Source of the DNA: Gemmatimonadota bacterium
Lineage (GTDB): Bacteria > Gemmatimonadota > Gemmatimonadetes > Gemmatimonadales > Gemmatimonadaceae
Assembly: GCA_031127225.1 (NCBI GenBank)
Contig: JARIEV010000022.1
Location: forward strand, 1 to 32,119
Reading direction: 5' to 3'
DNA: 32,119 bases
Position numbers and translations under genes: made by a program. The notes under the pieces are model-generated. The model did not search any database and was not told the origin of the DNA. It saw only the letters and a list, made by a program, of their open reading frames with translations. The first letter of the stretch is position 1, and every line of letters begins with the position of its first letter. Below are positions 17,109 to 28,183 of the stretch, piece after piece.

Positions 17109-18056
17109 ATGCAGACCCTCATCCTGTTTGCCGTGTTCTTCGGCACCACGCTGCTGCTGCTGGGGATTTACGTGTTCGTGAACCGGCGTCGCCTCGAGGC
17201 GGCCGCGGCGCTCAAGGATCGACTGTCGACGACGGCGGCGCCGGCGGACATCAGCATTCTGCGCGACCTGCGGAAGAGTGCGGTGCCGTTTCTCGATCAG
17301 CTGCTGACCGGTCGGTCGTACACGCTGTTGATCGAGCGGGCGATCGACCGGGCGGGTATGCACTGGACGGTGGGGGAGTTCTCGATCGCCAGCGTACTGC
17401 TGGCGTCGATGGCGCTGCTGGCGGGACAGCAGTTCGGGCTCGCGTCGGCGCTGATCTCGGCGAGCGTGGGGCTGCTCCTGCCGTCGTTGCTGCTGTACAT
17501 CCAGCGTCGGCGACGGGTGGCGCGGCTTGAGGCGCAGCTCCCCGAAGCGATCGACATGATCGTGAACGCCATGCGCGCCGGCTTTTCGTTTCAGGCGGCG
17601 ATGAAGTTCGTGGGCGAAGAGATGCCGGCCCCCGTGGGGGAGGAGTTTGCGACGTTCTACGACGAGCAGCGGCTGGGGCTCGACGTCCGGGACGCGCTGC
17701 TGGACCTGCAGGAGCGGGTGGACACGCTCGACATCAAGATGTTCGTGACCTCGCTGCTCATTCAGCGGGAGACGGGGGGAAACCTTGGCGAGATCCTGAC
17801 CGGGCTGTCAACGCTGATCCGCGACCGGGCGGCACTGCATGACCAGATCGACACGCTCACAGCTGAACCCAAGCTCACGGGGACGGTGTTGGCGTTGCTA
17901 CCGCTGGCCGCGTTCGCCGTGATCATGCTCCTGAATCCTGCGATGATGGAGCCGATGTTCACCACGGACCCGGGTCGCTACACGCTGATGTTTGCCACGG
18001 GGGCACTCGTGCTTGGCTTTGTCCTCATTCGCCGCATTGCGCGGATCGACACGTAA
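17109..18056 (+). CDS. tadB: TadB, type II secretion F-family platform protein (Tad locus 2)
   Basis: This 315-residue inner-membrane platform protein has an N-terminal helix (ILFAVFFGTTLLLLGIYVFVNRRRL), a central helix pair (about 92-130), and C-terminal helices (GTVLALLPLAAFAVIMLLNP and a last one before IRRIARID). The GspF core has LPEAIDMIVNAMRAGFSFQAA, FYDEQRLGLDVRDALLDL and LLIQRETGGNLGEIL. Start and stop are tightly packed with cpaF and tadC. AAGGAG immediately after its stop serves tadC. Confidence 0.94.
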   Translation: MQTLILFAVFFGTTLLLLGIYVFVNRRRLEAAAALKDRLSTTAAPADISILRDLRKSAVPFLDQLLTGRSYTLLIERAIDRAGMHWTVGEFSIASVLLASMALLAGQQFGLASALISASVGLLLPSLLLYIQRRRRVARLEAQLPEAIDMIVNAMRAGFSFQAAMKFVGEEMPAPVGEEFATFYDEQRLGLDVRDALLDLQERVDTLDIKMFVTSLLIQRETGGNLGEILTGLSTLIRDRAALHDQIDTLTAEPKLTGTVLALLPLAAFAVIMLLNPAMMEPMFTTDPGRYTLMFATGALVLGFVLIRRIARIDT

Positions 18057-18066
18057 GGAGCTGCCC

Positions 18067-18984
18067 ATGTCCACTCCATTGCTGATTTTTTTCGGCGTAC
18101 TGGTGCTCGCCGCCGCCGTTGGCACCTGGGCGCTCGTGGCCAACCACCGCCGCGCGGTGCTCATTGCCCGGGCCACGGAATTTCCCAGCGGCCCCGTGCC
18201 GCGGCGCATCGAATTGCGCACTGGGCACGCCGCCACGTCGGAGCGCGTGAACGACACGCTCGAGAAGCTGCTCCCCGAGGGGTTGCTGGGAGAGACCGCA
18301 GCGATGCGTTTGGTGCGGGCGGGGTACGATGCGCCGTCGGCCCCTGCCCTGTACCTGCTGCTGCGGCTGGTGACGGCTGTGGTGTGTCCGGTGCTGGCCT
18401 TCGTGTTTGCGCCCCGCGACACTGAGCTGTTGTTCCTGGCCAGCATGGCCGTGAGTGTGGCGCTGGGGCTCATGCTGCCCCCCTATCTGCTGCTGCGTAT
18501 CGAGCGCGCCCGTCAGCTCCGCGTGCTGCGTTCCATTCCCGACTGCCTCGACCTGCTGCTGGTGTGTGTGGAGGCCGGCGTCTCGCTGGATGCCGCGCTG
18601 TTGCGCGTGGGGCACGAGATGTCGCGGATGCACCCCGAGCTGGCGCATGAACTGCTCGTGGTCAATCGGAAGGCGAACGCCGGCATGCGGCGCGATGACG
18701 CGCTGCACGGCCTGTACGACCGCACCGGGGTGGAGGAGCTGCGGGCGCTGTCGTCCACGATGATTCAGAGCGAACGCTGGGGCTCATCGATTGGCCGCGT
18801 ACTGCGGGTGCACTCGGAGAGTCTGCGGCGGAAGCGGCGGCAGTCGGCGGAACGTCGTGGAGCCACGGCCGCGACCAAGATGATTTTCCCGATGGTGCTG
18901 TTCATTCTGCCGTCGCTCTTTGCGGTAATCGGTGGTCCGATGGTGATTGGCCTAGGTCCGGTGTTCGACGTATTCGGCCAGTGA
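18067..18984 (+). CDS. tadC: TadC, type II secretion F-family platform protein (Tad locus 2)
   Basis: This 305-residue protein has an N-terminal helix (LLIFFGVLVLAAAVGTWALVA), central helices (about 95-145) and a C-terminal helix (IFPMVLFILPSLFAVIGGP). The GspF core has IPDCLDLLLVCVEAGVSLDAALLRVGHEM and TMIQSERWGSSIGRVLR. The ATG at 18067 is chosen because AAGGAG lies 6 nt before it; upstream in-frame codons fall inside tadB. It pairs with TadB in the inner-membrane platform. The TadG-like gene follows after 38 nt. Confidence 0.94.
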   Translation: MSTPLLIFFGVLVLAAAVGTWALVANHRRAVLIARATEFPSGPVPRRIELRTGHAATSERVNDTLEKLLPEGLLGETAAMRLVRAGYDAPSAPALYLLLRLVTAVVCPVLAFVFAPRDTELLFLASMAVSVALGLMLPPYLLLRIERARQLRVLRSIPDCLDLLLVCVEAGVSLDAALLRVGHEMSRMHPELAHELLVVNRKANAGMRRDDALHGLYDRTGVEELRALSSTMIQSERWGSSIGRVLRVHSESLRRKRRQSAERRGATAATKMIFPMVLFILPSLFAVIGGPMVIGLGPVFDVFGQ

Positions 18985-19022
18985 CGTGCGACGCGCCCCG
19001 AAGGCGTGCGGGTGGAGGCACA

Positions 19023-20159
19023 ATGAGGCATTTCAAGAATCGTCGTGGCGCCACCATGATTTTGGTGGGGGTATCACTGGTGGCGTTGGTGGGCGTGATG
19101 GCGCTGGCCATCGACATGGGGCGCATGTATCTGTTCCGGGCGCAGGTGCACGTGTCGTCGGATGCGGCGGCGCTGGCGGGCGCCGAGCGGCTACTGCGGG
19201 AGCAGTATGGTGGCGCAGCCGATACGGCGGTGGCGTACGGACGACTGAACCTGGTGGATGGCGCGACGCCCGCGATCAGCACGGCGGATATCGAGCCGGG
19301 CGTGTGGCAGGGCGTCAGCTTCACACCCACGGGGAGCTGGTCATCGGCCAGCAACGCGGTGCGAGCTACGTCGCGCTACACGGCCAGCTACCGCTTCGGC
19401 CGCATCTTCGGGCTCACCACGCGCGTGCGTGAAGCCAAGAGCGTGGCAGCGATCGGGTCCGCCTCGGGGACCGCGTGCGCGCGGCCGTTGGCGGTGCCGT
19501 ACCAGCGGCTGCTGGACGCGCGCTACGGCGACGGGGGGAAGGACGCGCTCACGTACACGCTGACCACCGAGGATATCGCGTGGTTTTCCAACAACCATCC
19601 GTCGATCCTGCTCAAGTCAGGCAGTACGAATACCGCGATCGTGAGCGGCAACTTTTATGGCATGCGACTGCCGCCGCAGGTGTATGCGGACGGGGTGATC
19701 GGCAATCCGTGGAGCGGCGCCGATGATTTCGGCCACGCGCTGAGTGCGACGTGTGACGACCTGGCGGCGCGCATCGAGCGCGCTGGCGGCCGGCCGTACG
19801 TGAGCGTGGGCGACTGGATGCGTGGCGAGAACGGCAACATGGTGAACAAGGCCGGTGACGCCATCGCGACGCTGTGCCGCGCGAATGGCGGGATCGAGCC
19901 GCCCGGCGGCACTGGCAACAAATCGTTCACCTGCAATGTGCCCACGCGCCTGATCATCGCGATGTGGGACGTGAGCGGTGATGCCCCGGGGACCAACGCG
20001 TGCGGCAATAAATGTTTTCGCGTGAAGACGGTGGGCGCGTTCTATGCGACCGAGTACGTAAAAGACGAAGGCGTGCGCGGCTACTTCTCCGACGTGGTCG
20101 CCCAGGGTGCGTTCTCACCGTTTCCGGGACTGATCAAAAAAATCGCCTTGGTCCAGTAG
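19023..20159 (+). CDS. TadG-like Flp pilus assembly protein (Tad locus 2)
   Basis: This 378-residue protein has RRGATMILVGVSLVALVGVMALAIDMGRMYLF near the N-terminus in two adjoining segments, matching the Tad_N anchor, followed by SSDAAALAGAERLL. The outer region of about 330 residues contains TACARPLAVPYQ and further Cys residues (ATCDD, TLCRAN, FTCNVP, NACGNKCF), so disulfides are likely. The ATG at 19023 follows GGAGG by 6 nt; a GTG at 18981 overlapping the tadC stop would add a cytoplasmic leader. Apart from the anchor and the CxRP motif, similarity to the locus 1 copy is low, so the two may serve different fibre tips or partners. Confidence 0.85.
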   Translation: MRHFKNRRGATMILVGVSLVALVGVMALAIDMGRMYLFRAQVHVSSDAAALAGAERLLREQYGGAADTAVAYGRLNLVDGATPAISTADIEPGVWQGVSFTPTGSWSSASNAVRATSRYTASYRFGRIFGLTTRVREAKSVAAIGSASGTACARPLAVPYQRLLDARYGDGGKDALTYTLTTEDIAWFSNNHPSILLKSGSTNTAIVSGNFYGMRLPPQVYADGVIGNPWSGADDFGHALSATCDDLAARIERAGGRPYVSVGDWMRGENGNMVNKAGDAIATLCRANGGIEPPGGTGNKSFTCNVPTRLIIAMWDVSGDAPGTNACGNKCFRVKTVGAFYATEYVKDEGVRGYFSDVVAQGAFSPFPGLIKKIALVQ

Positions 20160-21252: not shown

Positions 21253-22875
21253 TTACCCGAGCAGGCGGACGGCCTGCTCGGCGGCGTGCACGCCATGCCA
21301 CTGGGCCTCTTCGAAGAGGCTCAGGTTACTGAGATCAGCGTGCGCCACCAGCATCCGCGGGGCCGGCTGCCACGCCTGCATAGCCGCGACACGCGACAAG
21401 GCGCCGGGCGTGGGGCGCGCCATGGCGTGGCCCCAGCGCATGATGTCGATGCGCGCCACGCACTCGGCGATATCGGCGTGCGCGCGACGCAGATCGGCGA
21501 GAATCTCGTCGCGCCAGGAGCCCCAACTGCGCTGCTGCAGCTGGAGCCGCGCCTCGCGCGCCGGCCGGTCCACCAGCGCGTGGTACCAGGTCCACACGGT
21601 GCGATCGGGTGGTGTGCCCAGCCCCTGATGCGCCGCGTTCACGTACCCAAGCGAGGCACTGCCATAGATCACGTTGTCCCACGCCAGCTCGGCCCCGGCC
21701 GACGCCGGCGGCCGGTCGATGACCAGGTTGGCCACCACCCATGGCGCATACTCCAGCGTGACCGGCAGCTGCACGGCCGCACACACGCGCGGCAGGACGA
21801 ACAGCGGTGCACACCAGATCACGGCGTCGGCGGTGATGCGCTCCTGCGGCGTCTCAATCACCCAGCGCGCGCCCGGGCGCGCCCCGTCGCGTGCCACCTG
21901 CCACACGGGCGCCCCCGTGACCACCCGTGCGCGCCCGTCGGGGCCCGGTTGCGCCGAGAGCCGCTGGGTGAGGCGCTGGGCGATCCAGTCGTTCCCTTCG
22001 GGCCAGGTGAGCGGCCCCTGCTCGTCGGGGTCGCGCGCCGCGAAGTAGTGCACGGCGGCCCACGCGCTGGCCTGCGAGAGCGCAGCGCCGTAGTCGTCGC
22101 GGGTGCCGTACTCCACCCACCAGCGCAGCGCCGGTGCGGTGAAGCCTTCGCGATCCATCCACTGGCGCGCTGTGATGGTATCGAGTGCCTCCACGGCGGC
22201 CGCCGACCGTGCACCGCGGGCGCCATCGCGTCGTGCCACGAGACGGCGGGCGTGCCCGTCGGCGCTGGGCACACTGAACATGCCGGTGGCGCGGAAGTCA
22301 GCGATGCGCGCCTCGAAGCGCTGGAACTGCGCGCGATCGGCGCGGGAGAGCGCGTCCACCGGGTCGAGCCCCTCGTGCCAGCGCCCATGCTGCCAGAGGC
22401 GCTCCTGCGGGGTGTGGCAGAGCACGCGCTCGTCCCACACACCGTCGGCCCCCAGCACGCCGAGGTCGCGCATGAGACGGCGCACGTGCACGGCGTCGGC
22501 GGCGGGCACGGGCACGTAGTGCGCGCCCCACGGCGCCCGCTGCCCTCGATAGTCGGCCGAGCGCGCATTGCCGCCGGTGCGCGCGTCCATTTCGAGCAGC
22601 GTCCAGTCGTGCAGCCCCAGCGCATCGAGGCGCCACCCGGCGGAGAGCCCGCCCATGCCGCCGCCGATGATCGCCACTTGCACGCGCCGTTCCGCGCGGC
22701 GCGTGGTACCGCTGGAGCGCGGCGCCGTACCGTCGCGTAGCGCGTGCCCCATCGCGCTACCGTCGGGGACGAAACCGCCGCCGATCACGCGTCCTTTGGG
22801 CGTGAGCCCCACCAGCGCGGGCGCGGCGATGATGGCACCGAGGGTCCGCAGGACGTCGCGACGTGATGGCGTCAC
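21253..22875 (-). CDS. Tat-signal FAD-dependent oxidoreductase (amine-oxidase-like)
   Basis: This 540-residue protein starts with a twin-arginine signal (SRRDVLRTLGAIIAAPALVG), so it is likely exported folded with its cofactor. A dinucleotide-binding motif, VAIIGGGMGGLSAGWRL (67-83), ends its first strand pair at Glu95, and ARTGGNARS (98-106) matches the R-x-GG-R motif of flavin amine oxidases. A C-terminal block (LSLFEEAQWHGVHAAEQAV) resembles the second FAD-contact region. The substrate cannot be read from sequence. It is the last gene of the SPFH-SpeD operon, starting 7 nt after the aminopropyltransferase gene, so a polyamine or aminopropylated product is a reasonable guess. The start is GTG. 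Confidence 0.78.
   Translation of the reverse strand: MTPSRRDVLRTLGAIIAAPALVGLTPKGRVIGGGFVPDGSAMGHALRDGTAPRSSGTTRRAERRVQVAIIGGGMGGLSAGWRLDALGLHDWTLLEMDARTGGNARSADYRGQRAPWGAHYVPVPAADAVHVRRLMRDLGVLGADGVWDERVLCHTPQERLWQHGRWHEGLDPVDALSRADRAQFQRFEARIADFRATGMFSVPSADGHARRLVARRDGARGARSAAAVEALDTITARQWMDREGFTAPALRWWVEYGTRDDYGAALSQASAWAAVHYFAARDPDEQGPLTWPEGNDWIAQRLTQRLSAQPGPDGRARVVTGAPVWQVARDGARPGARWVIETPQERITADAVIWCAPLFVLPRVCAAVQLPVTLEYAPWVVANLVIDRPPASAGAELAWDNVIYGSASLGYVNAAHQGLGTPPDRTVWTWYHALVDRPAREARLQLQQRSWGSWRDEILADLRRAHADIAECVARIDIMRWGHAMARPTPGALSRVAAMQAWQPAPRMLVAHADLSNLSLFEEAQWHGVHAAEQAVRLLG
21257..21281. terminator. candidate hairpin at the convergent 3' ends
   Basis: CCGAGCAGGC (21257-21266) and GCCTGCTCGG (21272-21281) form a perfect 10-bp stem with a 5-base loop. 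It lies in the last codons of the FAD oxidoreductase gene and 34 bases after the pseudokinase stop. Placement between convergent genes suits a bidirectional terminator, but no T-tract follows on either strand, so it may act only as an mRNA 3' end structure. Confidence 0.35.
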
Positions 22876-22882
22876 GTCACGG

Positions 22883-24379
22883 TCACCGGTTGATGGCGTC
22901 GAACTCGTGCTCGTAGTAGCGCACGAGCACCTGATCGTTGAGGCGGTTGGCCAGCGCCGGCACGCGTTGCATGTCGGCGGGAAAGTCGAACAGCGCCGGC
23001 ACGCCGGAGGCCGTGAGATAGCGCAGCCCGCCGGGGAGCGTGGCGGGCGGTGCGTAGCTGTCGAGCCCGGCGATCACGAATCCCCATTCGCCGAAGCTGG
23101 GCACGTACACGTGGTACGGCCACGTGCGGAGTCCGGCGCCTTCGAGCGTCGTCACGATGCTCCAGAACGACTGCCGCGCAAACATCGGTGACGTACTCTG
23201 CACGACCAGGAAGCCGCCCGGCGCGATATGCTGTTTGACGAGCCGATAGAACGCGCTCGTGTACAGCTTGCCCACGTGATAGTTGGACGGGTCGGGGAAG
23301 TCGATGACGACGAAATCGAACGGCACCGCCGTGCTGTCGAGCCACGTGAAGGCGTCGGCGTTCACCACGCGCACGCGCGGGTCGGTGAGCGCCTGCGCGT
23401 TGAGGGCCGTGAGGCGCGGATGCTGCTGAAAGAGCGCCGTCATCCCTTCGTCGAGATCGACCAGCGTGATCTGCCGCACGTCGGGGTACTTGAGGATCTC
23501 GCGCACGGCGAGTCCGTCGCCGCCGCCGAGCACCAGCACGCGGCCACGGGCCATCGCCGACGACAGACCGGGATGCACGAGCGCCTCGTGGTACCGGTAC
23601 TCATCGCGCGAGGCGAACTGCAGGTGCCCATTGAGATACAGCCGCAGGTCATCCTTCCAGCTGGTAAGCACGATGCGCTGGTAGCGCGTGTCCTTGGCCA
23701 GAATGATGGGATCGGCGTACATCCCTTCCTCGGCCAGCGTGGTGATGCGCTGCCCCTTCCAGAGGCCGGCGCCCAGCACGAGCAGCGCGAGGATACCACC
23801 CGCCCGCAAGGCATTTTTGCGCGGCAGGACATCGCGGAACAGCCACGTGCTCCACAGCCCGACCAGCACGTTGATGACCCCGAACAGCAACGCCGAGCGC
23901 ACCAACCCGAGCCGCGGCACCAGCAGCAACGGGAAGAGCAGCGAGGCGAAGAGCGCGCCGATGTAGTCGAACGTGAGTACGTTGGCGACCACGTCCTTGA
24001 AGCTGAACCGATCCTGCAGGATCCGCATGAGCAGCGGGATCTCGAGTCCCACCAGGATGCCGATCAGCAGGACGATGCCGTACAGCGTGGGGCGGAATGC
24101 TTCGGTGTACGCGAACGCCAGAAAGAGAATCAGTGACGATAGGCCACCGACCACGCCGACCAGCATCTCGACCAGCACGAACCGCGTGACCACCCCGCGG
24201 ACCACGAAGCGCGAGAGCCAACTGCCGATGCCCATCGCGAACAGGTACGTGCCGATGATCGTGGAGAACTGCGTGACGCTGTCGCCCAGCAGATACGACG
24301 CGAGCGCACCGGCTACGAGCTCATAAATGAGACCGCAGGCGGCGATGAGGCAAACGGAAATGAACAGCGCAATCGGCAC
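22883..24379 (-). CDS. membrane-embedded aminopropyltransferase (spermidine-synthase fold)
   Basis: This 498-residue protein has about seven transmembrane helices (within 1-208) and then a cytoplasmic spermidine-synthase-like domain (about 215-470). Motifs are YQRIVL (233-238), LNGHLQFASRDEYRYHEALVHP (249-270; canonical Gln and Asp-Glu...Tyr-His-Glu), the AdoMet-binding VLGGGDGL (283-290), acidic VDLDEG, NADAF (340-344) and VIDFPDPSNYH (358-368), whose Asp360 matches the catalytic Asp of the aminopropyl-acceptor site. Classical enzymes have Ser/Thr-Ser/Thr after that Asp; here Phe-Pro follows. It probably transfers the aminopropyl group of decarboxylated AdoMet, supplied by SpeD in the same operon; the acceptor is unknown. 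The GTG start overlaps the DUF350 stop by one base. Confidence 0.88.
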   Translation of the reverse strand: MPIALFISVCLIAACGLIYELVAGALASYLLGDSVTQFSTIIGTYLFAMGIGSWLSRFVVRGVVTRFVLVEMLVGVVGGLSSLILFLAFAYTEAFRPTLYGIVLLIGILVGLEIPLLMRILQDRFSFKDVVANVLTFDYIGALFASLLFPLLLVPRLGLVRSALLFGVINVLVGLWSTWLFRDVLPRKNALRAGGILALLVLGAGLWKGQRITTLAEEGMYADPIILAKDTRYQRIVLTSWKDDLRLYLNGHLQFASRDEYRYHEALVHPGLSSAMARGRVLVLGGGDGLAVREILKYPDVRQITLVDLDEGMTALFQQHPRLTALNAQALTDPRVRVVNADAFTWLDSTAVPFDFVVIDFPDPSNYHVGKLYTSAFYRLVKQHIAPGGFLVVQSTSPMFARQSFWSIVTTLEGAGLRTWPYHVYVPSFGEWGFVIAGLDSYAPPATLPGGLRYLTASGVPALFDFPADMQRVPALANRLNDQVLVRYYEHEFDAINR

Positions 24380-24588
24380 TAGTGAATAGCGGCGGCGACG
24401 ATGATGCCCAACGCGATGGCGACCGAACCCATGAGAATGGCGGCGGCCGTGTTCTTCTTCACCCCGATCTCGTCCCAGAGCTTGCCGGGGGTGAGCAGGT
24501 CGATGATGACGAAGGCGATGATGAACATCGCGACGCCGATGAGCGCGAACGCGCCGGAGTTGACCACGTTCTGCAGGAACTGATCCAT
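24379..24588 (-). CDS. DUF350 (YjfL-type) small membrane protein
   Basis: This 69-residue protein has two hydrophobic helices (about 13-34 and 45-67) joined by LLTPGKLWDEIGVKKNT, the DUF350 signature in which one helix-loop-helix unit carries DLLTPGKL. The unit is single, while many family members have two to four. A strong AGGAGGT lies 5 nt before the ATG at 24586-24588; the ATG just upstream is too close to it. DUF350 genes are known next to ATP-grasp glutathionylspermidine-synthetase-like and polyamine genes, for example yjfL in E. coli. The molecular function is unknown. The stop overlaps the aminopropyltransferase start. Confidence 0.88.
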   Translation of the reverse strand: MDQFLQNVVNSGAFALIGVAMFIIAFVIIDLLTPGKLWDEIGVKKNTAAAILMGSVAIALGIIVAAAIH

Positions 24589-24598
24589 CATGACCTCC

Positions 24599-24784
24599 TC
24601 ATTTGCCGCGGAGCGTGCGCCCCGGGATGAAGTACGTGGGTCGGTAGGCGCCGGGATTATCGCGGACCGACCGGGGGTTGGTGCGGGATTCGCTGGCGCG
24701 GGTGAGGCTCCAGCCGCGGTACTGCGCCGTGCCAAGCAGGGCGAGGACGGCGACGGCCCACAGGGTGTAAATCCGGGTGCCCAT
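24599..24784 (-). CDS. small single-pass membrane protein, unrecognised
   Basis: This 61-residue protein has a transmembrane helix (about 5-20, YTLWAVAVLALLGTA) followed by a basic, polar tail of 40 residues with SVRDNPGAYRPTYF and an Arg/Lys-rich end. Start is the ATG at 24782-24784, with GGAG about 9 nt upstream; a TTG directly before it is an alternative. It lies 12 nt after the membrane DUF4178 gene and its stop sits just before the DUF350 RBS, so it belongs to the same operon. I recognise no named family. Third positions and tight packing support a real gene. Confidence 0.75.
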   Translation of the reverse strand: MGTRIYTLWAVAVLALLGTAQYRGWSLTRASESRTNPRSVRDNPGAYRPTYFIPGRTLRGK

Positions 24785-24796
24785 CAAGCGGCTCCG

Positions 24797-26119
24797 CTAT
24801 TCATCGTCATCATCACTGCTCCCCGTCGGGGCATGATCGCTCTCGGCCCAACGACGGCTCTCGAAACCGGCCCCCGGCACGAGCGCGAGCAGCGCCGGCG
24901 CCGCGAGCGCGATGAACGCAAACCCGTAGAACAAGTAATGCGGCGCATCACGCCGCACCCGCACCCGATACTGCGCTTCGGCCCGACCGGGCTCACCGCC
25001 CTCGGCCTGCACGCGCAAGATGTAGCGACCGGCCGGGACGGATGCCACGCGCACCGATTCAGAGCGCGAGCCTTCCGTCCACTGCCCGTCACTGTCGGCG
25101 CCGCGGTAGAAGCTGAGCTGCCGAGTGACTTCACGCGTGTCGCCGGTTTGCTCGTTGACCAGCGAGAACACGAGGAAGATCCAGTCGTTGTCCAGATCGG
25201 CGTCGATATCGAGCGTGACATTGGACGGACGTCCGTCGAGCACGAACGGCTCCGTGACCGACACGGCGGTGTCGTCCTGCCCGCGCACCACGCGGAAGGC
25301 GCGCTCGAACACCGTGGCGTTGCCGGCCAGCGCGATGTTGGCGGCCAGCATGGCCACGAGGGCCACGAGCGCGATCAGCATGCGCCCCATGATCCGCTGC
25401 GGCGTACCGGCGTGCGGATTGGGTTGATTGGCGAACACCCCCGCTGGCGGGCGCAGTGTATGCTCGAGACCGAACGCTTTTTGGATCACGTCGTGCGGCG
25501 TGTAGACGCCCAGCGACCAGGTGATCTCGCTGCCCGATGCCTCGGCGCTCAGCACATACGGCGGGGCCACGAAATCACGCGTCACGACGTGATCGCCCAC
25601 GCGCAATTCCCACGGGAACTCCCCGAGCGCCGCGGTGGTGGTGGCCGTGGCCGTCTGGAAGTGCCGGTAGGTGGTGCCGTCGAGTTCCACGGTGGGCCGT
25701 GCCCCGCCCTGCTCCCGTTCCGGACGACGGCGCAGCTTCTCGATGACGTTCCAGTGGCCCTGATATTCCGACAGATACAGGAAGCCGCGGTACGGATTGA
25801 AGCTGACGTACTCGGTCCAGCTGTAGTCGGTGCCGTCCACGGTGATGGTGACGCGCTGGGCGCCGATCACCTCCCACGGGGCGCCCTTCCAGGTGCCGCG
25901 CGTCCCCAGTGGGATGTGCGGCACGAAGTCGATGCCTTCGCCATGCCGGAGGATGCGCAGCTGCTCGTCGGTGGCGTCGAGCTGGGCGCCACACGCGGCG
26001 CACACCACCGACACGGCCCACCCCTGCGCGTGCAACGTGATGGCCGCCCCGCAGGACGGGCAGTTGAGTGCGGAGGCCCGCGGGACGCGTGCGGCGGGCG
26101 TATCGAGCGGCGCTACCAT
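24797..26119 (-). CDS. membrane DUF4178 protein with N-terminal zinc ribbon
   Basis: This 440-residue protein has a zinc ribbon with Cys20, Cys23, Cys40 and Cys43 (CPSCG...CAACG), then a DUF4178 beta-rich domain (about 65-210, with WKGAPWEVIGAQRVTI and YVSFNPYRGFLYLSEYQGHW), transmembrane helix 1 (247-265), an outer beta-rich domain (about 266-392), transmembrane helix 2 (394-415) and an acidic tail (SSDDDDE). So a cytoplasmic sensor-like half is joined to an extracytoplasmic half. The first 6 nt overlap the upstream soluble DUF4178 gene. Role is unknown; the layout suggests a membrane scaffold or sensor of the operon. Confidence 0.85.
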   Translation of the reverse strand: MVAPLDTPAARVPRASALNCPSCGAAITLHAQGWAVSVVCAACGAQLDATDEQLRILRHGEGIDFVPHIPLGTRGTWKGAPWEVIGAQRVTITVDGTDYSWTEYVSFNPYRGFLYLSEYQGHWNVIEKLRRRPEREQGGARPTVELDGTTYRHFQTATATTTAALGEFPWELRVGDHVVTRDFVAPPYVLSAEASGSEITWSLGVYTPHDVIQKAFGLEHTLRPPAGVFANQPNPHAGTPQRIMGRMLIALVALVAMLAANIALAGNATVFERAFRVVRGQDDTAVSVTEPFVLDGRPSNVTLDIDADLDNDWIFLVFSLVNEQTGDTREVTRQLSFYRGADSDGQWTEGSRSESVRVASVPAGRYILRVQAEGGEPGRAEAQYRVRVRRDAPHYLFYGFAFIALAAPALLALVPGAGFESRRWAESDHAPTGSSDDDDE

Positions 26120-26757
26120 CCTTCGAACTCCCGCAGGTTGCGGAACCGGAGGTCGTCGAAGGTCACGTACTCGCCCAGAAAGAGCAGCGGCGGCACGTCG
26201 GTGCCGTCGATGGTGGCGAAGCCGTGATGCGCGTTCTGCAGATCAACGAACAGACAGCGGCGCTTGTCCCACGTGGTGAACGGGAGCTCGCCCTCGGTGC
26301 CGAGATACTGCGCCTCGGTGATGCCCACCACATCGTAGGGGGTGTCGTTCCAGACGTACGTCTCACCGACCTGCACCGTGGCCGGATCCGGGACGACGGT
26401 ATCGGCCGGCGCGATGATGGTCATGGCGTACTCGAGCTGCGCGTCGGAGAGCCACGCGCTCTGGCCGTCGTTGAGCACGCAGTGCCATTCGTTCCAGCGG
26501 CCCCGGTGCCAGCCGTAGGTGATGCGTCCCACGACGACAAACCGCATGTTGTGCCACTGCCCTTCGGTGCCCAGCTGAATGGGCGAGCGGGTGGCGGGGA
26601 AATCGGCCTGTTGTCCGAGCGTGGCGAGATCGAGGTCGCGCCGCACGAGCACGGACCGGCAGTAGGCGCAGGTGGCCTGCACCGCCTGCGCCCACCGGAA
26701 GCGGACCGGCGCGCCGCAGTTGGGGCAATCGGTGCCGTGTGGCTGTGGCACCGTCAC
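26113..26757 (-). CDS. soluble DUF4178 protein with zinc ribbon
   Basis: This 214-residue protein has a zinc ribbon with Cys11, Cys14, Cys30 and Cys33 (CPNCG...CAYC) and then DUF4178-like modules: GTEGQWHNMRFVVVGRITYGW with WNEWHCVLNDGQSAWLSDA, and a later WNDTPYDVVGITEAQYLGTEGELPF with FVDLQNAHHGFATID. No transmembrane segment. The GTG start overlaps the speD stop by 4 nt (GTGA); longer in-frame starts would run far into speD. With the next gene it forms a tandem pair of zinc-ribbon DUF4178 proteins, one soluble and one membrane-bound. Function unknown. Confidence 0.85.
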   Translation of the reverse strand: MTVPQPHGTDCPNCGAPVRFRWAQAVQATCAYCRSVLVRRDLDLATLGQQADFPATRSPIQLGTEGQWHNMRFVVVGRITYGWHRGRWNEWHCVLNDGQSAWLSDAQLEYAMTIIAPADTVVPDPATVQVGETYVWNDTPYDVVGITEAQYLGTEGELPFTTWDKRRCLFVDLQNAHHGFATIDGTDVPPLLFLGEYVTFDDLRFRNLREFEGW

Positions 26758-27131
26758 GATGACGGCTCGTGGGCGTAGGCGCGCGCGATCTGCCGGACGC
26801 GGACGTCGCGGGCCCCGAGGAGCACCGCGAGCTGGGTGGCCCACGGCCACGCCTCACGCGGGGTACAGCAGAACAGGTTAAGGCAGGCGGACGCGTGCTC
26901 GGGGAACGTGTGCACCGTGAGATGCGACTCCGCGAGCATGAGCAGGCCGGTAATCCCGCCCGGCGCCGGGAACTGGTGCCACACCGCATCGGCGACCGGA
27001 TGCAGCGCGAGATCCGCGACGATCACGGCAAAGAGCGCGCGCAACGCGGTGAGGTCGGCGAGGCGGACGGGATCGCACCCGTACGCCTCGACGACCCATT
27101 CATTGCCGGTGCGGTGCGTGAGTCCGGACAC
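26754..27131 (-). CDS. speD: S-adenosylmethionine decarboxylase proenzyme
   Basis: This 125-residue prokaryotic-type AdoMet decarboxylase self-cleaves between Glu68 and Ser69 in LAESHLTVHTFPE to give the pyruvoyl group. His74 (five after Ser) and Cys89 (twenty after Ser) match the processing His and catalytic Cys positions of the T. maritima enzyme (63, 68, 83). WVVEAYGCD near the N-terminus is also conserved. It makes decarboxylated AdoMet, the aminopropyl donor for the transferase encoded in the same operon. The start is GTG, 29 nt after the SPFH gene, without a clear RBS. Two adjacent Cys (88-89) are unusual. Confidence 0.92.
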   Translation of the reverse strand: MSGLTHRTGNEWVVEAYGCDPVRLADLTALRALFAVIVADLALHPVADAVWHQFPAPGGITGLLMLAESHLTVHTFPEHASACLNLFCCTPREAWPWATQLAVLLGARDVRVRQIARAYAHEPSS

Positions 27132-27160
27132 GTGACGTGGGGGGTGCGTCCGTGCCGGCG

Positions 27161-28183
27161 TCAGCTCTGCGGTGAGCCGCAGCCCGAGCAGAACTTGGCG
27201 GGCGCCGGAAGCGAGGTGCCACAGTTGGTGCAGAACTTGGTGTCGCCCGTAGCCGCGGGGGCGGCGCCAGCAGCCGCACCACCCGCGGCAGCACCGCCCG
27301 CGGCGGCACCGGCACCCGCGCCAGTGGCGCCGCGTATGGCATCGCTCACGATGCCGCCGAGTCCGACACCGGCGCCGATGCCGGCGGCGAGACCGGCCAT
27401 TCCGCCGGTGTTGGCCGCCGCGATCGGGATGGACTGTGCCGCCTGGAACTGCGTGTACTGCCGCAGGTCGCCGAGCATGTTCATCGAGATGCGCTCGTCG
27501 AGCCGCTTTTGGAGCTCGTCGGGGAGCGAAAGATTCTCGACGGTGAACGACTCGAGGGCGAGTCCGAGCTGTTCGAAGGCGGGCTGCACGGCCGCGGCGA
27601 TCTGCTCGCCCAGCTGCGCCTGATTGGCCGCCATGTCGAGGAACGGCACCTGCGCGTTGGCAAAGGCCGCCGTGAAGCCGCTCAGAATGGCGTTGCGCAG
27701 CGCGGGGTCGATCTGGGCCACGGTGTACGCCGCGTCGGTGGCGCCGACCTTGGCCTGAAACACGGCCGGATCGGCCACGCGGAACGCGTACATGCCGAAC
27801 GCGCGCAGGCGCACGGCGCCGAACTCCCGGTCACGGATGGTGATCGGCTGCTGGGTGCCCCACCGCTGTCCGGTCTGCGAGCGCGTTGAGAAAAAGTAGA
27901 CGTCGCTTTTGAACGGCGACTGAAAGGCCTTGTCCCAATTCTGGAGATTGGTGAGCAGCGGCAAGTTGGCCGTGAGGAGCGTGTGCAGCCCCGGCGCGAA
28001 CTGGTCGGCGGCGCGCCCCTCGTTGACGAAGAGCGCGCGCTGCGACTCGCGCACCGTGAGCTGCGCCCCGCTCTGGATCTCCATGTCCTGCATGGGGAAG
28101 CGGTACATGAGGACACCCGGACCGGACTCGGTCCACTGGATGACGTCAATAAACTGCTTGCGAAGGAAATCGCCGAATGCCAT
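27161..28183 (-). CDS. SPFH-domain (virion-core-protein/YdjI-like) protein with C-terminal zinc ribbon
   Basis: This 340-residue protein has an SPFH-like core (about 25-260: VIQWTESGPGVLMYRFPMQDMEI, VRESQRALFVNEGRAADQFAPGLHTL, FGMYAFRVADPAVFQ, and FENLSLPDE-like TVENLSLPDELQKRLDERISM). A Gly/Ala-rich low-complexity region follows (about 265-315), then a zinc ribbon FCTNCG...FCSGCG at the end. No transmembrane helix, so it is likely peripheral. Family members such as B. subtilis YdjI occur with PspA in envelope-stress operons. It is the first gene of the eight-gene leftward operon; ATG start. The Gly/Ala stretch resembles glycine zippers that touch membranes (inference). Confidence 0.88.
   Translation of the reverse strand: MAFGDFLRKQFIDVIQWTESGPGVLMYRFPMQDMEIQSGAQLTVRESQRALFVNEGRAADQFAPGLHTLLTANLPLLTNLQNWDKAFQSPFKSDVYFFSTRSQTGQRWGTQQPITIRDREFGAVRLRAFGMYAFRVADPAVFQAKVGATDAAYTVAQIDPALRNAILSGFTAAFANAQVPFLDMAANQAQLGEQIAAAVQPAFEQLGLALESFTVENLSLPDELQKRLDERISMNMLGDLRQYTQFQAAQSIPIAAANTGGMAGLAAGIGAGVGLGGIVSDAIRGATGAGAGAAAGGAAAGGAAAGAAPAATGDTKFCTNCGTSLPAPAKFCSGCGSPQS

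Follow-up and report, generated by a model that had tools for sequence, protein, structure and literature searches.

An operon joining S-adenosylmethionine decarboxylase, a membrane aminopropyltransferase and an exported oxidase-fold flavoprotein in Gemmatimonadota: a candidate membrane-bound polyamine module

Introduction

Polyamines are usually viewed as soluble cytoplasmic metabolites. A 32,119-nucleotide (nt) stretch of DNA from a Gemmatimonadota bacterium (assembly GCA_031127225.1, contig JARIEV010000022.1; here called the window) raises the question of what polyamine-type enzymes do when their genes are packed among genes for membrane proteins. On its minus strand, from 28183 to 21253, eight genes with intergenic gaps of at most 29 nt combine a SpeD-type S-adenosylmethionine (AdoMet) decarboxylase and a membrane aminopropyltransferase (mAPT) with genes for an SPFH protein, two DUF4178 proteins, a 62-amino-acid protein, a DUF350 protein and an exported flavoprotein. 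A first-pass annotation, made from the letters alone, had proposed that the enzymes place an aminopropyl group on a membrane-associated acceptor as part of an envelope response. We find that this cassette is kept far beyond the genus, and that it is best explained, at roughly even confidence, as a membrane-bound polyamine module with an amine oxidase on the outside.

Related operons have been described. In PMC11237479, a second group of operons brings a 7TM-spermidine synthase, DUF350, DUF4178 and a lipoprotein together with a CesT/Tir-PspA pair. A third group, which includes an AdoMet decarboxylase and a polyamine oxidase, has an ATP-grasp glutathionylspermidine-synthetase-like ligase and DUF350 and, in a variant, Band-7-SHOCT; Li et al. 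2019 is cited there for this link. The context given for these related operons is envelope stress, so the envelope setting of the first-pass annotation has a published counterpart. PMC10948618 mentions a membrane-associated spermidine synthase context. In the literature searched, DUF4178 occurred in PMC11237479 only and wording for a membrane spermidine synthase in PMC10948618 only; the portions at hand hold no description of a form with SPFH, SpeD and a twin-arginine (Tat)-type oxidase.

Results

We surveyed 200 Gemmatimonadota genomes (labelled G###, G000 being the genome of the window; loci are labelled L###). A full-length mAPT (937 to 992 bits) was present in 20 of them, the window's genome counted, and these are exactly the 20 whose SpeD adjoins DUF4178, as expected if the two intact enzymes belong together. 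Gene order is identical in the 19 other loci, although in L037 and L047 the contig ends within the oxidase. SPFH was found in 18 of the 20 genomes and not in L040 or L044; in these two loci, no replacement gene upstream of the operon stood out among the listed frames, to which no Pfam scan was applied. Two flanking genes were considered as members and rejected: the upstream M24 peptidase recurs within the genus only, among L031 to L049, as does the downstream Ser/Thr kinase, whose matches are weak (29 to 34% identity) and variable in placement. Since the same gene order is kept in 19 other loci and matches to the flanking genes are confined to the genus, the grouping goes beyond chance. Elsewhere in the phylum, the mAPT-like match of G007 is weaker (257.8 bits), and no PF02675 match was found in this genome; neither full-length mAPT nor SpeD was found in G112, which belongs to the same genus. 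Intact SpeDs also occur outside the operon in other families of the phylum, several of them beside a spermidine-synthase match.

A scan of 84,980 species genomes extended the comparison to other phyla. The best 80 of 581 mAPT relatives were kept, so the sample leans to loci resembling the query; the nearest two (L094 and L095) are 99 and 96% identical. Most of the 80 are from Acidobacteriota, Betaproteobacteria and Gemmatimonadota, and Verrucomicrobiota, Leptospiraceae and single records of Elusimicrobia, Fibrobacteres and Vampirovibrio are among the others included. Context was counted in the 52 loci with 5 kb on either side of the mAPT start, the 28 loci cut by contig ends being excluded. 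Within 6 kb of mAPT, these loci have DUF4178 (48 of 52), the oxidase (45), DUF350 (41), SPFH (40) and SpeD (38). The first-pass annotation had named rare co-occurrence as a refutation; this was not seen in the 52 loci, which lean to the closest mAPT relatives. The cassette recurs, in part or as a whole, in Acidobacteriota, Pseudomonadota, Verrucomicrobiota and others. On plasmid p1 of Novosphingobium sp. ES2-1, for example, the annotated order is SPFH, DUF4178, DUF4178, hypothetical, DUF350, polyamine aminopropyltransferase, FAD-dependent oxidoreductase, speD. We conclude that the cassette is real as a unit and widely conserved.

PspA was set aside as a member of the operon: a search of 87 loci (the 80 above and 7 from plasmids) with a single PspA query sequence gave no match within 7 kb of mAPT. 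Nor did Pfam find PspA among the ten window proteins scanned. It occurs once in G000, on another contig, above the Pfam cut-off and below the NCBIfam PspA cut-off.

Matches to mAPT were also found in 11 plasmid records, 10 of which cover most of its length; 2 are typed conjugative. Most of the 8 plasmid contexts (L043 and L184 to L190) carry further cassette genes, and L186 (a 40% match) carries none. Two Burkholderia replicons have the SPFH-DUF4178-SpeD half on the opposite strand.

All eight genes listed by the first-pass annotation are present (Table 1), and Pfam or NCBIfam assign seven of them; the 62-residue gene has no family match. For the DUF350 gene and the short DUF4178 gene, the scan used the longest open frame rather than the likely start, which for DUF350 is the ATG at 24591, behind GAGGAGGTC. 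In transcription order, the junctions read from the sequence are +29, -4, -7, +9, +7, -1 and +7 nt, tight enough to make a single transcript likely. Elsewhere in the window, upstream of the kinase gene (17109 to 20159), genes resemble, by eye, Flp/Tad pilus assembly and TadG-like proteins.

Table 1. The eight genes of the operon, in order of transcription (TM, transmembrane segment)
Product	Position	Strand	Support
SPFH/Band-7 protein (Band_7_1), C-terminal zinc ribbon, 340 aa	27161..28183	-	PF13421, 255 bits; PF13240 zinc ribbon
SpeD, class 1b AdoMet decarboxylase (putative activity), 125 aa, catalytic Ser/His/Cys (ESH...H...C)	26754..27131	-	PF02675/AdoMet_dc, 84 bits (cut-off 25)
DUF4178 protein, short form, 214 aa, N-terminal zinc-ribbon-like Cys pairs	26113..26757	-	PF13785, 65.1 bits
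DUF4178 protein, long form, 440 aa: zinc-ribbon-like stretch, DUF4178, TM 247-265, ~130 residues, TM 396-414	24797..26119	-	PF13785, 80.2 bits; hydropathy
Small protein, 62 aa, hydrophobic N-terminus	24599..24787	-	Present at the same place in 19 further Gemmatimonadota loci
DUF350 membrane protein, single 2-TM repeat, 70 aa	24379..24591	-	PF03994, 50.7 bits (cut-off 26); hydropathy
mAPT, N-terminal TM domain and spermidine-synthase domain, 498 aa	22883..24379	-	NF002956, 686.6 bits; PF01564, 116.5 bits over 261-436
Exported flavoprotein, predicted flavin amine oxidase fold, 540 aa, Tat-type N-terminus (SRRDVLRTLG)	21253..22875	-	AlphaFold2; NAD_binding_8

The window SpeD is a putative AdoMet decarboxylase. 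Aligned to the AdoMet decarboxylase 1tlu (Thermotoga maritima-type), it keeps the Ser, His and Cys (ESHLTVHTFPE...FCC), which in T. maritima SpeD are the pyruvoyl serine S63 and the catalytic H68 and C83 (PMC10407285). The same catalytic pattern is kept in all 38 SpeDs near mAPT in the 52 full-context loci. The window protein also keeps a Pro after His-Thr-Phe, which would correspond to the diagnostic Pro of PMC10407285, to which the text of that paper gives no number. Its score passes the Pfam cut-off and misses that of the TIGR03330 equivalog (66.7 versus 75.65 bits).

The position of speD varies among the phyla. In Gemmatimonadota and Acidobacteriota, its usual place is between SPFH and DUF4178. 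The gene follows the oxidase in Verrucomicrobiota, several Betaproteobacteria and Novosphingobium, and other loci have it close by on the opposite strand. A tree of 87 SpeD-like rows contains a 34-row set (support 98/98) that groups the Betaproteobacteria and Verrucomicrobiota SpeDs with canonical and degenerate ones, apart from the in-operon SpeDs. The alignment is short and many forks are open; one in-operon row (L123) lies, at weak support (93/45), at the base of the other set. Four rows labelled "downstream" by sequence pattern (L098, L114, L117 and L123) are in fact in-operon SpeDs. On the mAPT tree, the label for a SpeD located elsewhere, set by hand, has to change at least 8 times on well-supported branches. 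We infer that SpeD entered this cassette on more than one occasion. That one synthase is accompanied by different SpeD lineages suggests that donor supply is a functional part of the cassette and not a passenger.

Three further observations concern SpeD. In a second SpeD-like family of Gemmatimonadota (L028 to L030, which repeat L056 to L058; L050 to L058; and L060 to L062), both the pyruvoyl Ser (with GCH, GGH or similar for ESH) and the catalytic Cys have been lost. The family forms a clade of its own (12 rows, 100/100) and is possibly a dead, prozyme-like paralogue; in L058 and L060, its gene shares 4 nt with a downstream gene of 472 to 512 residues that has no Pfam family. At L112:6012-6571, the in-operon SpeD is split over two frames in an operon that is otherwise complete, by breakage of the copy or by sequencing error. 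At L065:4600-7100 (G116), a canonical SpeD lies between two stretches 31 to 35% identical to mAPT, which makes another pairing of SpeD with membrane-synthase-like genes.

The mAPT passes the NF002956 equivalog cut-off for polyamine aminopropyltransferases (472 bits) and has five transmembrane segments by hydropathy at the threshold used. Its best solved relatives are two Thermus aminopropyltransferase entries (1uir and 3anx), an entry named "polyamine aminopropyltransferase" and a plant thermospermine synthase. The spermidine-synthase active-site features are present (the GGGDG motif, the Asp pair and the Gln). All 107 aligned mAPTs have Asp288, Asp360, Asp363 and Gln394, and 106 have Tyr263, with a gap in the remaining one; going by spermidine-synthase structures, these residues presumably bind the donor and a small-amine acceptor. 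Phe429 stands where Bacillus subtilis has Tyr, and Asp308 is replaced by Glu in 11 of the 107. An assignment of the acceptor from motifs was set aside: the combination of Asp288 and Asp308 departs both from the spermine-synthase pattern (Asp, Glu, D(G/C)G) and from the usual thermospermine pattern of PMC11107197, and the motifs given there do not single out spermidine synthases. As far as residues can tell, mAPT neither points to a lipid or protein acceptor nor bars one.

The oxidase was modelled with AlphaFold2 (mean predicted local distance difference test score, 92.2). Its predicted fold is that of a flavin amine oxidase, by alignment of the model to monoamine and putrescine oxidases and to SpdH. 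That it is exported, as the first-pass annotation held, agrees with its Tat-type signal; across the family, 61 of 68 oxidase frames have a twin-arginine motif preceding the FAD motif, compared with 39 of 438 control segments (starts were not chosen). Flavin amine oxidases have a conserved Lys near flavin N5. We aligned 36 oxidases (alignment A2), hand-picked from 62 frames, all but the window protein and two Leptospira rows being chosen for the Tat motif. No column of A2 has Lys in 90% of the rows. H119, D260 and H416 of the oxidase are invariant and are candidate active-site residues. PF01593 matches 29 of the 36, the window protein not being among them. SpdH (PDB 7d9g), presumably the Pseudomonas aeruginosa enzyme, is 14 to 15% identical to the window oxidase. 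Identification with SpdH by N-terminal sequence alone was rejected, SpdH being absent from the best 60 matches both of an N-terminal profile (A4) and of the window protein's N-terminal piece.

Both DUF4178 proteins have N-terminal CxxC pairs resembling a zinc ribbon, with Pfam ribbon matches under the cut-off. No transmembrane segment was found in the short form by hydropathy, and the hydrophobic N-terminus of the 62-residue protein falls under the threshold used. The only solved relative retrieved for the long form was LysW, which was set aside at an E value of only 0.054. The two genes form one open frame at L040:5770-7683 and L044:6953-8995 (637 and 680 residues), and L121 has a 658-residue frame with two DUF4178 matches. 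These natural fusions argue for joint action of the two proteins.

The first-pass annotation had noted that no arginine or ornithine decarboxylase or agmatine gene is present and had concluded that a plain spermidine pathway is not encoded. The first statement stands for the operon and fails for the genome, and the second holds for the window only. A biosynthetic arginine decarboxylase, SpeA, is encoded on another contig of G000 (TIGR01273, 785.9 bits; cut-off, 624.1), and AguA-like and AguB-like genes lie side by side on its contig C80. Both of these families score below their NCBIfam cut-offs (261.6 versus 381.8 for AguA in G000; 306.9 versus 410.25 for AguB in G039). The operon SpeD is the only PF02675 match found in G000, and mAPT is the only full PF01564 match, a second being partial (22.5 bits). 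With SpeA, AguA-like and AguB-like genes and the operon's only SpeD and only full synthase, ordinary spermidine synthesis appears possible in this genome.

G000 is 83.65% complete, so statements of absence rest on the complete genomes of the genus. In ten genus genomes, a PF02784 frame of 654 to 710 residues occurs in all ten, as does PF04371 (one as a fragment), and a strong AguB-like match occurs in nine. A pyridoxal phosphate-dependent ornithine decarboxylase was considered and rejected, since PF02784 gives two matches in each of the ten genomes and those of G000 were read as LysA (by eye) and SpeA; PF01276 had no match above the cut-off in 20 genomes. Agmatinase was rejected as the putrescine route of G000: NCBIfam assigns the PF00491 protein of this genome to arginase (288.1; cut-off, 227.6), and its gene adjoins an ornithine-aminotransferase-like one (by eye). 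A second strong PF00491 match is present in G039, G055 and G079, and that of G039 passes the agmatinase cut-off (201.2 versus 174.3). For G000, the AguA-AguB pair appears the likelier route to putrescine.

A deoxyhypusine-synthase-family gene was found in 8 of the 10 genus genomes and not in G000 or G112. The G039 protein scores 106.7 against the "homospermidine biosynthesis" model (cut-off, 450). In the genomes searched (L177 and L178 among the loci), genes of this family fall into two score classes, of about 228 to 242 and 121 to 140 bits, with both present in G029 and G073. The low-score class, found in the genus, may differ from the known homospermidine enzyme.

Discussion

We consider it about evenly probable that the operon encodes a membrane-bound polyamine module with an amine oxidase on the outside. 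The cassette content, its conservation, the intact catalytic residues, the export signal, the putrescine-type genes of the genome and the predicted oxidase fold are what the analysis itself provides; the acceptor, the passage of the product across the membrane, the oxidase substrate and the scaffold or sensor roles are inferred. In such a module, SpeD would supply decarboxylated AdoMet, and mAPT, at the inner face of the membrane, would aminopropylate a small amine, most likely putrescine to give spermidine. The putrescine would be made from arginine by SpeA, AguA and AguB, encoded outside the operon. The exported flavoenzyme would act on an amine at the outer face, most likely the product of mAPT, and the two DUF4178 proteins, DUF350, the small protein and SPFH might form a membrane scaffold or sensor that ties the amine level to the state of the envelope. 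A more specific form of this proposal is a split amine cycle, which we put forward only tentatively. Inner-face synthesis by SpeD and mAPT would be followed by transfer through or along the membrane and by outer-face oxidation by the Tat enzyme with its SpdH-like fold, and the transmembrane DUF4178 protein would read the amine, or the aldehyde or peroxide, and signal to SPFH.

The strongest alternative, rather unlikely in our judgment, stays close to the first-pass annotation: mAPT would load the aminopropyl group onto the headgroup of a lipid, a lipoprotein or a membrane protein. The acceptor so modified would be the substrate of the oxidase on the outside. The embedding of mAPT in the membrane, as judged by hydropathy, fits this view, as does the packing of membrane and scaffold genes (DUF4178, DUF350 and SPFH) around it in most of the 52 loci. 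The authors of PMC11237479 themselves allow "aminopropylation of other substrates". The deoxyhypusine-synthase-family gene of the genus may moreover supply another triamine, so that a second free triamine is not obviously needed. However, the small-amine-pocket residues examined are kept in 106 to 107 of 107 mAPTs and none indicates a bulky acceptor, and genes for putrescine are present in the same genome.

Less probable still is a PSP-like envelope-stress scaffold, with a polyamine as a mere ligand or regulator and the oxidase as a membrane repair or redox enzyme for a non-amine substrate of the isoprenoid, pyrrole or fatty acid type. Several findings speak against it: the oxidase accompanies the aminopropyltransferase in 45 of the 52 loci, PF01593 is found in most of the aligned oxidases, and the search with one PspA query gave no match beside mAPT. 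Finally, SpeD might be a neofunctionalised ornithine or arginine decarboxylase (SpeDC or SpeDA of PMC10407285, where such enzymes are reported from many phyla), the operon making putrescine or agmatine and mAPT having no donor supply of its own; the sub-threshold TIGR03330 score would suit this, but we think it very improbable, since the protein retains Ser, His, Cys and the Pro that follows His-Thr-Phe, the donor for mAPT would be missing with no other SpeD found in the genome, and SpeA is present, whereas canonical arginine or ornithine decarboxylase is reported to be absent from all genomes with an anomalous SpeD (PMC10407285).

If the membrane-bound module is real, fixing synthesis at the membrane beside an exported enzyme of amine-oxidase fold and scaffold proteins would tie polyamine chemistry to care of the envelope. 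DUF4178 and DUF350, domains of unknown function by name, would gain a testable role. With two non-membrane enzymes and one membrane enzyme, the system is small and suited to asking, by mass spectrometry, what membrane aminopropyltransferases modify.

Judged from the published texts at hand, the operon is known in kind, a DUF350-DUF4178-7TM-synthase set with PspA having been published (PMC11237479), and what is new is the form with SPFH, SpeD and Tat oxidase. With the CesT/Tir-PspA operons, the second group of that paper, it shares a membrane-fused synthase, DUF350 and DUF4178 in one operon and a membrane or envelope-stress setting. It differs in that SPFH leads and no PspA match lies beside mAPT, that SpeD, a Tat flavin oxidase and two DUF4178 genes are included, and that DUF350 is a single 2-TM repeat, in contrast to the 8TM form there; the lipoprotein with a Ctha_1186 domain in that operon may or may not correspond to the 62-residue protein here. 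The third group likewise unites Band-7, DUF350, AdoMet decarboxylase and an oxidase. No match to its ATP-grasp ligase, potassium channel, DUF1190 or DUF2491 was found in the eight genes, which have a membrane aminopropyltransferase instead. Canonical SpeD-SpeE spermidine synthesis has, by sequence, the same two activities with the catalytic residues kept; here, in contrast, the synthase is fused to a membrane domain, and its gene lies tightly among scaffold-type genes and that of an exported oxidase.

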